A DNA stretch of 55,451 nt, taken from the NCBI GenBank assembly GCA_017395425.1, contig JAFPUM010000020.1, positions 1 to 55,451 on the forward strand, in the 5' to 3' direction. The notes below the pieces were generated by a model. It worked only from the letters and a program-made list of their open reading frames with translations. It had not been told where the DNA came from and did not search any database. Made by a program: the position numbers and the translations under genes. Below, piece after piece: positions 8,066 through 55,451 of the stretch (position 1 is the first letter of the stretch; the number at the start of each line of letters is the position of its first letter). This DNA comes from Clostridia bacterium (lineage in GTDB: Bacteria; Bacillota; Clostridia; Oscillospirales; Acutalibacteraceae).

Positions 8066-8977
8066 ATGACCAGAAAAAACATCATGCTGATCGTCAATCC
8101 CTGCGCGGGACGCAGATGGGGCGAAAAGCATTCGGAATCGGTGGCGGAATGGTTTCGTGAGGGCGGTGCGGAATGCAGCCTGTATTTCACGAACAAGCGT
8201 GGCGACGGCACCGAGTTCGTCTGCCGGGACGGCGACCGCTTTGATATCATCGCCTGCATGGGCGGCGACGGCACCCTGAATGAAGTCATCAACGGTATGC
8301 TCAAAAGTCATCTGGACACCCCGCTGGGCTATATTCCCACCGGCAGTACCAATGATTTTGCCGCCAGTATGCAGCTCGCCAGTCAGCCGGAACAGGCTGT
8401 CAGAGACATTCTCGCCTGCCGCACCGAAGCCATCGACGCGGGACGCTTCACCGGCAAAGAGCGGAGTTATTTTGGCTATGTCGCCTCTTTCGGCGCGTTT
8501 ACGGCAACTTCCTACCGCACGCCGCAGCCCATGAAAAACCGCTGGGGACGTCTCTCCTACTTTCTCGAAGGCATCAGGGATTTAGGCGATATCCGCGCCG
8601 CGCATAAGGTTATCTACACCGACGGTCAGACCTTTGAGGGGGACTACCTCTTCGGGGCATTCAGCAATTCCCGCCGCATCGGCGGTCTGGTTCAATACAG
8701 TGAGAACGATGTAGACGTCAGCGACGAACAGCTCGAAATGCTGCTCATCAGAAAGCCGACCTGCCTTTCCGATCTGTATGCTATCCTGCACAGTCTCGCT
8801 CACAGCTCCTACGAGGGGAATCCCTATATCCACTTCTGCCGCTCGGACAGATTTGTGGTAGAATCCGATAGTGCTACCCAGTGGTCACTGGACGGAGAAT
8901 ACGCCGACAGCGAACGGGAAACGGTGATTTCCTGTATCAAGCATAAAATTAATTTTATCAGACCTGTATACGCATAA
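8066..8977 (+). CDS. Diacylglycerol kinase family lipid kinase
   Basis: This 303-residue protein has the DAGK catalytic fold motifs: an N-terminal strand ending NPCAG (residues 11-15), the nucleotide loop GGDGT (66-70) followed by LNEVINGM, and the PTGSTNDFA segment near 87-95. The C-terminal half is the beta-sandwich of the YegS/DgkB group. It probably phosphorylates diacylglycerol or a related lipid at the inner membrane face. The ATG at 8066 has AGGAGG nine bases upstream; an in-frame ATG 18 codons earlier has none. The gene is monocistronic, lying between the HATPase terminator and a convergent terminator shared with ktrA. Confidence 0.92.
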   Translation: MTRKNIMLIVNPCAGRRWGEKHSESVAEWFREGGAECSLYFTNKRGDGTEFVCRDGDRFDIIACMGGDGTLNEVINGMLKSHLDTPLGYIPTGSTNDFAASMQLASQPEQAVRDILACRTEAIDAGRFTGKERSYFGYVASFGAFTATSYRTPQPMKNRWGRLSYFLEGIRDLGDIRAAHKVIYTDGQTFEGDYLFGAFSNSRRIGGLVQYSENDVDVSDEQLEMLLIRKPTCLSDLYAILHSLAHSSYEGNPYIHFCRSDRFVVESDSATQWSLDGEYADSERETVISCIKHKINFIRPVYA

Positions 8978-9031
8978 AAAGCCCGCCGTTCCGATACCGT
9001 GGTTGTTTTCCACGATTCCCGAACGGCGGGC
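8976..9031. terminator. Bidirectional terminator between lipid kinase and ktrA
   Basis: Perfect 11-bp arms GCCCGCCGTTC (8981-8991) and GAACGGCGGGC (9021-9031) lie between convergent genes. The U-run is best on the minus strand (five A at 8976-8980). Confidence 0.8.
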
Positions 9032-9071
9032 ATTTCTGTCAAATCATCACTGTCCGCCCTATTATGGTTTC

Positions 9072-9716
9072 CTATATTCTGAAACACCGTTGAATATCAC
9101 GGATTTCTCCGATAGCAAACACAATGTCATCGGTCTGCATAACGGTATCAAAGGAAGGGATAAAAACCTCTCTTTTTCGTTTCACAGTCAGGATATTGAC
9201 TTTGTATTTTTTTCTCACGTCAATTTGTGAAAGCGTCTTGCCATACCATTCCTTCGGCACTTTCATTTCATAGATGGAATAATTGTTATCCAACTGAATA
9301 AAGTCCAGAATACTGTCCGACGCATATTTTGTCGCGATACGCAGTGCCATCTGTTTTTCGGGATAGACCACTTCATCGGCGCCGTTCCGGAGCAGAAATT
9401 TCATCTGCACATCATTTGTCGCACGGGAGATAATCTGTTTTGCGCCCAGCTCGCTGAGCAGCGAGGTGGTTTCCAGAGAGGACTGGAACAGACCGCCAAG
9501 CGCCACAATGCACACATCATAGTTATCTACACCGAGAGAACGCAAAAAATCTTCATTAGTACTGTCCCCGATTCTTGCATTGGTCACATAGGGCAGGATT
9601 TCATTGATACGATCCTCGTTGAGATCTACTGCCATAACCTCGCATCGAAGTTCCGCCATACGCTTTGCGATATGGCTTCCGAATTGTCCTACGCCGATAA
9701 TCAATACGGTTTTCAT
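9072..9716 (-). CDS. ktrA: Potassium uptake regulatory subunit (KtrA/TrkA family)
   Basis: This 214-residue cytoplasmic protein starts with a Rossmann RCK domain: GVGQFG at residues 8-13, then an acidic residue at the end of the second strand (VDL) that contacts the ribose of NAD or adenine nucleotides. A C-terminal RCK_C domain (about 135-214) ends the protein, as in KtrA/KtrC. These octameric rings gate the KtrB channel-like transporter in response to ATP/ADP, and in many Firmicutes to cyclic di-AMP bound by RCK_C. It lies 11 bases downstream of the ktrB-like gene in a two-gene operon that ends at the terminator at 8976-9031. Confidence 0.93.
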   Translation of the reverse strand: MKTVLIIGVGQFGSHIAKRMAELRCEVMAVDLNEDRINEILPYVTNARIGDSTNEDFLRSLGVDNYDVCIVALGGLFQSSLETTSLLSELGAKQIISRATNDVQMKFLLRNGADEVVYPEKQMALRIATKYASDSILDFIQLDNNYSIYEMKVPKEWYGKTLSQIDVRKKYKVNILTVKRKREVFIPSFDTVMQTDDIVFAIGEIRDIQRCFRI

Positions 9717-52899: not shown

Positions 52900-53949
52900 T
52901 CAGAGCTTTTCGATTTCCTTGAGCAGTTCGGACAGCAGATCTTCCTCCGACACCTTGCGCAGCACTTCGCCCTTCCTGAAGATCAGACCGCAGCCCACGC
53001 CGCCTGCCACGCCGATATCGGCTTCTCTCGCTTCCCCGGGACCGTTGACCACACAGCCCATGACTGCTACCTTGATATCTTTATCCACGTCTTTCAGGGC
53101 TTCCTGCACGTCCTCCGCCAGCTTGATGAGATCAATGCGCGTGCGTCCGCAGGTGGGACAGGACACAAATTGTATGCCGCCCTTGCGGATTTCCAGCGAG
53201 CGCAGAATATCCTTCGCCGCGTAAACCTCCCGCACCGGATCCGCCGTCAGCGATACTCGCACCGTGTCGCCGATACCGTCCATGAGCAGCGCGCCCAGAC
53301 CCGCCGAGGACTTGATCAGTCCCAGCCGTTCGGTGCCTGCTTCGGTCACGCCGAGGTGCAGCGGATAATCGCACTTCTCGGACGCCAGCCGGTAGGCTTC
53401 CACCATCGTCTGCACGTCGGAGGATTTCATGGAAATGACGGTATCGTAAAAATCAAATTTTTCCAGCAGCGATACATGATAGAGCGCACTTTCCACCAAC
53501 GCTTCGGCTGTCGGCGCACCGTATTTTGCCAGAATGGATTTCTCCACCGAGCCGGAATTGACCCCCACGCGAATCGGAATCTTCCGTGCGCGACAGGCTT
53601 CCACCACCGCTTTCACACGGTCTTCGCCGCCGATATTGCCGGGATTGATGCGGATTTTATCCACCCCTGCCGCCGCCGATTCCAGCGCCAGCTTGTAGTC
53701 AAAGTGAATGTCCGCCACAATCGGAACCGATACGGCTTCCTTGAGTGCCGCGATGAGTCTGACCGCTGGCATATCCGGCACTGCCGCCCGGATAATCTCA
53801 CAGCCCGCGGCTTCCAGTGCCTTCGCCTGTGCCACACTGTCTTCGATGTCCGTGGAGGGCTTGTTGAGCATGGACTGAATGGTAATCGGCGCGTCCCCGC
53901 CGATAAACAGGTTGCCCACCTGCACCTTGCGCGTCTTTTTTCTTTCCAT
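52900..53949 (-). CDS. ispG: 4-hydroxy-3-methylbut-2-enyl diphosphate synthase
   Basis: This 349-residue iron-sulfur enzyme of the MEP isoprenoid pathway has VGGDAPITIQSM-like N-terminus, IRINPGNIGGEDRV, and the cluster ligands in FVSCPTCGRT and MGCVVNGPGEA. It converts MEcPP to HMBPP in the cytosol. A consensus promoter (54027-54055) lies upstream. It heads a minus-strand run continuing through the small genes to polC, the ispG-polC order seen in many Firmicutes, here with three genes inserted. Confidence 0.97.
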   Translation of the reverse strand: MERKKTRKVQVGNLFIGGDAPITIQSMLNKPSTDIEDSVAQAKALEAAGCEIIRAAVPDMPAVRLIAALKEAVSVPIVADIHFDYKLALESAAAGVDKIRINPGNIGGEDRVKAVVEACRARKIPIRVGVNSGSVEKSILAKYGAPTAEALVESALYHVSLLEKFDFYDTVISMKSSDVQTMVEAYRLASEKCDYPLHLGVTEAGTERLGLIKSSAGLGALLMDGIGDTVRVSLTADPVREVYAAKDILRSLEIRKGGIQFVSCPTCGRTRIDLIKLAEDVQEALKDVDKDIKVAVMGCVVNGPGEAREADIGVAGGVGCGLIFRKGEVLRKVSEEDLLSELLKEIEKL

Positions 53950-54127: not shown

Positions 54128-54143
54128 CAAAATGCGCATTTTG
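54128..54143. promoter_or_regulatory. Perfect 16-bp palindrome upstream of TIR gene
   Basis: CAAAATGCGCATTTTG is a perfect palindrome ending two bases before the -35 of the TIR promoter. The same half-site CAAAATGC occurs again at 54077-54084, between the two divergent promoters. A dimeric repressor site is likely. Confidence 0.6.
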
Positions 54144-54145
54144 TC

Positions 54146-54176
54146 TTGACGTTTACGGAAAAATATGTCATACTAT
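54146..54176 (+). promoter_or_regulatory. Promoter-like element for TIR gene
   Basis: TTGACG (54146-54151) is followed by CATACT at 17 bp (54169-54174) or TACTAT at 19 bp (54171-54176). Either could serve as the -10 box. The start codon is at 54253. Confidence 0.5.
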
Positions 54177-54252
54177 TCTAAAGACTTGTCTTTATCGGGA
54201 TATTTTTTATATTTTCATATTTTCATGATTGACATAAGGAGGCTGATGTTTC

Positions 54253-55451
54253 ATGCCGGATTCCACCCTTACCTACCGCACACGAAACGGCAAAATTACC
54301 AACGCGACGGGACTGAACGTCGTGTTTCTGAGCTATCGCAAGCAGAACAAGGTCTTTCGCAACGACGTGGTGAGAGACATCCTCGACGCGAACGACTGCG
54401 CCGTGTGGTGCGACCGCCATCTTTCCGCCGGCGAGGATTTCAATGAGGAAATCGCCGCCGCGCTGGAGCGCATGAACGTCTTCGTACTGATGGTCACGCC
54501 CGCCACCTTTGAGCCGGGCTGCTATACGCTGACCAAGGAGATTCCCCGCGCGCTGGAACGGAAAATCCCCATCATTCCCATTCTTCTCGAGGAAACCGAC
54601 ATGAAACGGTTTGCCGAGGTGCTGGGGGACATCCACGCGCTGGACAAGCGCGAGCCGGACGAATATGAGGACGAGCTGCGCGACCGGCTGGGCAAGATAC
54701 TCCCCACCAAGGACGAGAAGGAGAAAATCCGCATGGCGCAGAAGGAGAGCGGTTCGCGTGCCGCGAAAACGATCTATTATCAGGGCTTGGGCTGGCTGAC
54801 CGGCGAAAACTGTGAACGCGACCCGGACAGGGGCGTGCAGATGATCACCGCCGCGGCAATCAGCGGCGAAGCCCCCGAGGCGCTGCTGCGTCTGGCGGGG
54901 CTATACGAGACCGGCGACGGCGTCACCCGCGACTGGCAGCAGGCGCTGGAGTGGTACGACCGATACACCGCCGCCATGGAGTCCCGCTTCGGCGAGAACG
55001 AGGACGACGATGTTTCGCTGGCAGATGCGTATGATTCCAAAGGGAAACTGCTGAAAAACCACGGCAAACTGACGGCAGCCAAAGCCGCGTTTCTTTCCTG
55101 CAACCGTGTTTGTGAAAAACTCGTATTCCTCTACGGTGCAAGGCAGGAGAGAAATTTGTCCGTCAGCTACGAGCGCCTCGGCGACGTCTGCATGGCTGAT
55201 GGCGACCTGACCGGCGCAAAGGAGTATTATGATAAATCTCTGACAATCTACGAAAAATTGGCAAAGGATTCTGAGGATTATCTTGCCAAAAGGGCTCCAA
55301 CAGTTATATATGACAGGCTAGGTGATATGTGCAAGGCGCAAGGCGACCTGACCGGCGCAAAGGAGTATTATCTGAAAGATTTGGCAATCAGCGAGCGGCT
55401 GGCGGCGGATGCCGAGGGTACCGACGCACAGCGCGATTTGTCCGTCAGCTA
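54253..55451 (+). CDS. TIR-Sel1-TPR protein, C-terminus beyond window
   Basis: The frame is open from ATG 54253 to the edge (399 codons, no stop). AAGGAGG lies 10 bases upstream. Residues about 20-130 form a TIR domain: VVFLSYRKQNK (box 1, 23-33), WCDRHLSAGEDF (52-63), a VFVLMVTPATF strand and TLTKEIPRALE, in which Glu96 aligns with the catalytic Glu of NAD-cleaving TIRs. A linker is followed by a Sel1-like segment (about 170-238) and TPR units from about 250. The two clearest share a 47-residue period and identical 30-base DNA. This is the layout of bacterial TIR effectors with TPR/Sel1 sensor regions. Partners may lie downstream. Confidence 0.85.
   Translation, partial: MPDSTLTYRTRNGKITNATGLNVVFLSYRKQNKVFRNDVVRDILDANDCAVWCDRHLSAGEDFNEEIAAALERMNVFVLMVTPATFEPGCYTLTKEIPRALERKIPIIPILLEETDMKRFAEVLGDIHALDKREPDEYEDELRDRLGKILPTKDEKEKIRMAQKESGSRAAKTIYYQGLGWLTGENCERDPDRGVQMITAAAISGEAPEALLRLAGLYETGDGVTRDWQQALEWYDRYTAAMESRFGENEDDDVSLADAYDSKGKLLKNHGKLTAAKAAFLSCNRVCEKLVFLYGARQERNLSVSYERLGDVCMADGDLTGAKEYYDKSLTIYEKLAKDSEDYLAKRAPTVIYDRLGDMCKAQGDLTGAKEYYLKDLAISERLAADAEGTDAQRDLSVS
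55201..55371 (+). repeat. Direct DNA repeats inside the TPR region
   Basis: A 30-base string beginning GGCGACCTGACCGGCGCAAA occurs identically at 55201-55230 and 55342-55371 (141 bp apart, 47 codons). TTGTCCGTCAGCTA occurs at 55156-55169 and again at the window end, 55438-55451 (282 bp, two periods). Confidence 0.9.

Follow-up and report, generated by a model that had tools for sequence, protein, structure and literature searches.

The question raised by this locus is whether a gene which joins a TIR domain to Sel1 and TPR repeats, and which lies among housekeeping genes, serves in immunity and, if so, whether it belongs to one of the named bacterial defence systems. The window analysed here, a stretch of 55,451 nucleotides, is the entire contig C12 of the Clostridia bacterium genome G000 (2.36 Mb, 98.7% complete, 62 contigs). 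At its right end an ORF on the plus strand begins with an ATG at 54253 and stays open for 399 codons up to the last base (54253..55451); a ribosome-binding-like AAGGAGG, read from the sequence, is located ten bases 5' of the ATG (54236..54242, plus strand). The gene had been expected to continue past the edge, and it does. The edge is an assembly break within a repeat array, the last 97 bases of the window (55355..55451, plus strand) reappearing without a change at the start of contig C57 (C57:1-97), where the reading frame continues to a stop codon at C57:1290-1292 to give a protein of 797 residues ending in a hydrophobic helix. The left neighbour is the divergently transcribed ispG (GcpE; 52900..53949, minus strand; Pfam GcpE E 7e-154), and the right neighbour, on C57, is a GGGtGRT gene (PF14057; Pfam). 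Since these two genes are adjacent on a single contig in genomes G014 and G017, in the same order as across the join, the linkage of C57 to C12 is supported. The gene thus stands alone in a housekeeping context, as the original prediction had it.

The completed protein consists of a TIR domain (residues 24-144; 54322..54684, plus strand), Sel1-like helical repeats (residues ca. 168-240; 54754..54972, plus strand), eight TPR units of 47 residues each (306-681) and a tail with the single strongly hydrophobic stretch of the protein, at the C-terminus within residues 757-785. Units 1 and 2 occupy 55168..55308 and 55309..55449 of the plus strand, while units 3-8, the tail and the hydrophobic helix are encoded on C57; the count of eight is as assembled and may be off, because the contig break falls inside the array. 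All three predicted domain types were confirmed by Pfam: TIR_2 (53 bits against a cut-off of 28), TPR_2 (37.4 bits against 27) and Sel1, for which one repeat scores barely above the threshold (30.8 bits against 30.7). The Sel1-like region is further indicated by phmmer matches to Sel1 structures and by helices in the model. That one gene encodes a TIR domain with its glutamate, a Sel1 linker, a TPR array and a C-terminal hydrophobic helix is strongly supported.

The TIR domain was recognized by Pfam, by a genome search, in an AF2 model and by comparison of that model with the PDB; the fold prediction proposed as a check therefore came out in favour of a TIR fold, the nearest structure among the matches listed being the SPARTA TIR-APAZ protein. 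The structural matches to TIR proteins were obtained with a second aligner only, Foldseek giving no TIR structure among the 50 matches listed for the AF2 model, and a sequence search with the TIR part alone against solved structures gave no match up to E 10. The solved TPR protein 9m0n reached only E 0.17 with the TIR profile, and a search for literature on PDB 9m0n and 9umd led to nothing. The tail is poorly modelled (pLDDT <50 at 553-609 of L058). Box 1 reads FLSYR, and Glu96 (codon 54538..54540, plus strand) lies within CYTLTKE and is invariant in 11 of 11 aligned rows, a set in which two rows carry the same sequence. Both of these elements had been named beforehand, and on conservation and the TIR-1 profile alignment Glu96 is a putative NADase catalytic residue. 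Among the profile matches are the NAD+ hydrolases TIR-1/SARM1 and AbTIR, plus Cat1. As read from the alignments, Glu96 pairs in TIR-1 with the VHKE glutamate and in Cat1 with the second glutamate in WDELEQ; in AbTIR a Leu is opposite Glu96, and the Glu of NYEL occurs four residues earlier. A conserved glutamate in helix C characterizes the catalytic TIR NADases, and Glu96 is such a residue. A glutamate in the same motif is found in 19 of 20 distant relatives sampled. All 20 (L148-L167) possess in addition, at the N-terminus, a weaker TIR-like match that lacks the catalytic motif and might be a regulatory pseudo-TIR.

Comparison with G017, a genome of the same genus, bears on the history of the gene. 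There a copy with 98.5% DNA identity over 54129-55451 (the left part of the common block; plus strand) is located not beside ispG but downstream of tsaD, its immediate neighbours by Pfam being TsaD and ABC2/FHA-ABC genes. The block common to the two genomes begins 124 bases 5' of the ATG and ends at C57:1294, two bases beyond the stop codon, and neither a transposase nor a terminal repeat was found at its ends. At the tsaD site G000 lacks the gene, 53 bases separating the matching stretches against 2,118 in G017. The left flanks of this site match over 2.9 kb at 95.7%, while on the right a match of 57 bases at 93% is followed by different genes; because the right flanks match over only 57 bases this is not a clean empty site. 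At the window's own site both flanks match between the genomes, and in place of the TIR gene G017 carries a gene for a 469-residue ATPase (L093:848-2257, G017:C23) of the ATPase_2/DUF234 type, assigned by PADLOC to PDC-S27 (E 6e-63), the PDC families being phage-defence candidates only. In G014 approximately 730 bases, without a match to the TIR gene, lie between the GGGtGRT gene and ispG. The GGGtGRT-ispG interval resembles a swap site.

Synonymous divergence between G000 and G017 is 5/300 (1.7%) in the non-repeat parts of the gene, as against 25/272 in ispG, 32/259 in tsaD and 229/1,048 in polC (9-22%); the exception is the partial GGGtGRT gene with 4/156 (2.6%). Since the value is lower than those of ispG, tsaD and polC, the gene was most likely exchanged between the two lineages after their split. 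The G017 assembly is 79% complete, which leaves room for a misbinned contig; even so, the TsaD proteins of G017 and G000 share 98% identity, and close relatives are being compared in either case. That nearly the same gene, with its promoter, occupies a different intergenic site in each of the two related genomes is strongly supported, as is the conclusion that it is younger than the split of these hosts; the suggestion that it had been recently gained is thereby upheld. Such a change of site between closely related genomes is what is expected of mobile-element cargo. Two more orthologues, with 71 and 73% identity, again have different neighbours: in G004 a gene for an ABC ATPase lies upstream, and in G008 one for an FtsX permease lies ca. 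2 kb downstream. The search for a co-occurring second gene gave none common to the orthologue loci.

The original prediction had also credited the gene with its own promoter and an operator-like palindrome, of which the former stood and the latter did not. The promoter (TTGACG, 17 bp spacer, CATACT; -35 at 54146-54151, -10 at 54169-54174) is taken as real because it is conserved, and it is part of an element, GCATTTTGTCTTGAC-N7-GAAAAATATGTCATACT (54136..54174, plus strand), which is common to other TIR genes. The 16-bp palindrome CAAAATGCGCATTTTG (54128..54143) is imperfect in the relatives, and we have rejected it as a conserved unit; what is conserved in this region is the asymmetric GCATTTTNTCTTGAC...GTCATA. 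A strict search for GCATTTTNTCTTGAC-N7-GRAAAATRTGTCATA with up to 3 mismatches in 18 genomes of the genus gave six sites and none with the reversed control, and all six are directly 5' of a TIR-type gene. Three of these are TIR-TPR genes (G000, G017, G004); the fourth, in G000:C10, is a TIR gene with WD40 repeats and a middle part that is NACHT-like by our own label, the Pfam matches listed giving TIR and WD40; the fifth, in G010, encodes a DUF6273 protein with a hydrophobic helix and a TIR match below the cut-off (21.5 vs 28); and the sixth, at 3 mismatches in G004, encodes a TIR-LRR protein. The G000:C10 and G010:C17 loci have ca. 270 upstream bases in common, in two pieces, plus the first coding bases. 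A helicase gene and a primase-type gene lie ca. 1.5 kb or more upstream of the TIR gene in G000:C10, and an integrase gene is found ca. 3.3 kb from the promoter-bearing gene in G010:C17. Thus TIR genes that differ in other respects have one promoter type in common, and mobile-element genes lie near at least two of these TIR genes. A looser search raised the number of sites to 22, of which 8 precede TIR genes and 14 do not, with one match in the reversed control; 12 of the 22 loci were checked, five were known from the strict set and five were judged by near-identity to non-TIR sites that had been checked. Mobile TIR genes without a defence-island context would escape neighbour-based searches, and the strict-search promoter, which precedes TIR-type genes only, would help to collect those outside defence islands.

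A profile of the TIR-Sel1 region matched at E 1e-20 or better in 19 of 394 genomes of the order, G000 included, and in 17 of 169 genera. Among 20 neighbourhoods sampled, four contain Pfam-confirmed mobile genes, namely a serine recombinase (L155), a phage portal (L161), a relaxase and recombinase (L167), and an integrase ca. 4 kb from the relative (L158). Five contain other defence-type genes, one of them being counted also as mobile: a TIR-Sel1 gene just upstream of the relative (L158), TIR genes (L160, L165), a DUF4062-NACHT gene (L156) and, in L153, an ATPase of the PADLOC candidate family PDC-S01. The abstract of PMC13174449 describes DUF4062 as a TIR-like NADase. The original prediction was to fall if homologues lay consistently in non-defence loci with a settled function; the outcome is divided, with mobile or defence-type genes in 8 of the 20 neighbourhoods and none recognized, mostly on translations read by eye, in the other 12. 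Two of these loci have features of their own. In L158:5064-10538 a TIR-Sel1 gene is followed after 18 bases by a TIR-TIR-Sel1 relative, with the integrase ca. 4 kb downstream, a possible two-TIR operon; and L160:3426-4190, ca. 3.3 kb from the TIR-TPR relative, encodes a protein of 254 residues in which two stretches are of the TIR type (TIR_2 104 bits, ThsB_TIR 37.6 bits). Viral contigs, when scanned, added two relatives, one directly after Tn916-type Xis and Int genes (L117) and one with a McrC-type gene ca. 5 kb upstream (L118). No match was present in 50,697 phage records, and plasmid records gave one weak match only.

The genus is rich in TIR genes, with 4-18 TIR_2 matches per genome in 18 of 18 genomes; in an order-level comparison 34 of 117 genomes have any TIR_2 match, and 26 of these 34 have one to three. 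Such numbers may mean that TIR domains act here as general adaptors, and this gene could then specify a scaffold for ordinary membrane-linked signalling, its TIR and TPR parts assembling complexes and leaving NAD+ uncut. The TIR found in a frame of 535-626 residues in 17 of the 18 genomes points the same way, as do the 12 sampled relatives among genes without a recognized mobile or defence role. Two observations weigh on the other side: the invariance of Glu96, set beside the motif-less N-terminal TIR-like match of the 20 sampled relatives, suggests selection for catalysis in one domain, and the patchy distribution and recent transfer are ill-suited to a core pathway. We consider the scaffold a distinctly less probable reading, roughly the second choice. 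The 535-626-residue frames, which were not aligned, are perhaps one core protein.

Several other TIR genes of the genus join the TIR domain to different parts. L021:2096-3355 (G000:C18) encodes a TIR, a hydrophobic helix and a BspA-type LRR, which are the parts of animal Toll-like receptors in reversed order. Five TIR fusions to DUF6273, a domain of unknown function, were seen (L022:7481-8917, L024:2945-4012, L028:6998-8428, L111:6872-8063 and 8097-9377); some have a hydrophobic helix between the domains, the TIRs of two are below the Pfam cut-off by hmmscan, and the two in G010 are tandem neighbours. L025:5367-8510 (G000:C6) combines a TIR, a hydrophobic helix and a long YD/RHS-like repeat array, with a C5-cytosine methylase gene ca. 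2 kb downstream.

The hydrophobic tail recurs in the G017 and G008 orthologues and, in a more distant version, in a double-TIR protein of G017 (L064). Some pathogen TIR proteins disturb animal TIR signalling, and the assemblies of two relatives (L059, L060) derive from sheep colon and cattle caecum. A host-directed role for the present protein is nonetheless very improbable, the strongest hydrophobic stretch being at the C-terminus and the distribution and mobility fitting an intracellular defence.

As assembled, the array has eight TPR units in G000 and four in G017, with DNA identities between units reaching 93% in G000 itself and 99% when units of the two genomes are compared. The G008 orthologue has one clear unit and one damaged, the contig of the G004 orthologue ends inside the array, again at a repeat, and the L117 relative has several 47-residue units of the same kind. 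The pN/pS ratio between units is 0.55 in G000, 0.52 over 12 units and 0.73 in L117. Values of ca. 0.5 give no sign of positive selection in the repeats, so that variation of the array owes more to gain and loss of units than to selected residue changes. Near-identical sensor repeats of variable length resemble the concerted repeats of fungal NLRs (PMC4986451, in the part consulted), and together with the high number of TIR genes per genome they would suit a gene for kin recognition, killing upon non-self, in which the variable array senses a protein of another strain. We regard this as unlikely: neither a delivery route nor a partner was found, pN/pS shows no positive selection, and the Tn916-type integrase and McrC genes near relatives better fit conflict with phages or elements.

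The explanation which we favour, with a probability of a little under 0.6, is that of a solitary, mobile gene for a TIR NADase receptor which triggers abortive infection. Since the gene moved between related species on its own, it probably serves in defence against phages, as a gene whose type is known in part. The C-terminal helix would anchor the protein in the membrane with the TIR and TPR parts in the cytosol, where the TPR array might bind a protein of the phage or one of the host that infection has altered. Binding would cluster the TIR domains, Glu96 would enable them to cleave NAD+ to ADP-ribose or its cyclic form, and the loss of NAD+ or the resulting signal would stop the infected cell; changes in the number and content of repeats would retune the sensor. 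Against this explanation are the 12 of 20 sampled neighbourhoods without recognized mobile or defence genes and the Leu opposite Glu96 in AbTIR, and the core-looking TIRs of the genus may do something else. The near-identical four- and eight-repeat versions, with the same effector, nearly the same promoter and a different sensor length, permit a direct test of how solitary bacterial TIR proteins recognize infection. More tentatively, the genus may hold a repertoire of single-gene TIR receptors with interchangeable sensors, some under one travelling TIR-linked promoter, in which the TPR sensor varies its repeat number between close species; such a set would be the bacterial equivalent of the NLR repertoire in fungi, and its sensors would conceivably comprise TPRs with a hydrophobic tail, a NACHT-like part with WD40 repeats, a membrane helix with DUF6273, and LRRs.

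The first interpretation, as a TIR-Sel1-TPR gene of possible immune function, is thus supported in part: the recently gained solitary gene and Glu96 remain. Membership in Thoeris, CBASS or an Argonaute system was rejected, the profile matches being weak and no such gene being present among the immediate neighbours. With Thoeris the protein has the TIR domain in common, at weak scores (ThsB 30.6 bits; ThcB4 29.3 bits against a cut-off of 220); it differs in its Sel1-TPR array and tail and in having no second gene beside it, and by Pfam no ThsA partner was found among the immediate neighbours in G000 and G017. As to the SPARTA TIR-APAZ protein, Pfam revealed no APAZ or other SPARTA part here and no Argonaute among the neighbours it named. 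SpbK, which is carried on ICEBs1, has a sensor part different from the TPR array. It resembles our protein, by description only, as a TIR NADase with the abortive infection proposed here (PMC12847820; for ICEBs1, PMC11984713; both consulted in part).

The closest published architecture is that of the group 6 bacterial TIR proteins, which, in the sections of Toshchakov and Neuwald 2020 (PMC7075850) consulted, have an N-terminal TIR, many TPRs and more than 700 residues, and occur mainly in Actinobacteria. The present protein has the same N-terminal TIR and several TPRs, with 797 residues and 8 units across the contig join. Box 1 and box 2 patterns are given in that source; the likeness rests on architecture, and the sections consulted mention no membrane tail, whereas ours ends in a hydrophobic helix. 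A review (PMC9153377) names TIR-NBD-TPR proteins from both plants and bacteria, and TIR-AP-ATPase and TPR effectors appear among NTP-dependent conflict systems (PMC7159879), each in the part consulted. Fungal NLRs have near-identical, length-polymorphic TPR or WD repeats behind an effector domain (PMC4986451, as above); the repeat pattern is the same, but here no NTPase domain lies between effector and repeats, and the resemblance is a likeness of pattern, not homology. The consulted parts of PMC13142454, PMC9092222 and PMC10907252 describe no protein of the tailed TIR-Sel1-TPR kind, and in the open-licence literature searched neither the tailed, array-variable TIR-TPR form nor a promoter common to TIR genes is described. 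The view that the layout is not a system recognizable by name accordingly holds for the tailed, array-variable form and not for TIR-TPR proteins as such, which are in print as group 6; what is new is the hydrophobic tail, the variable array and the TIR-linked promoter.
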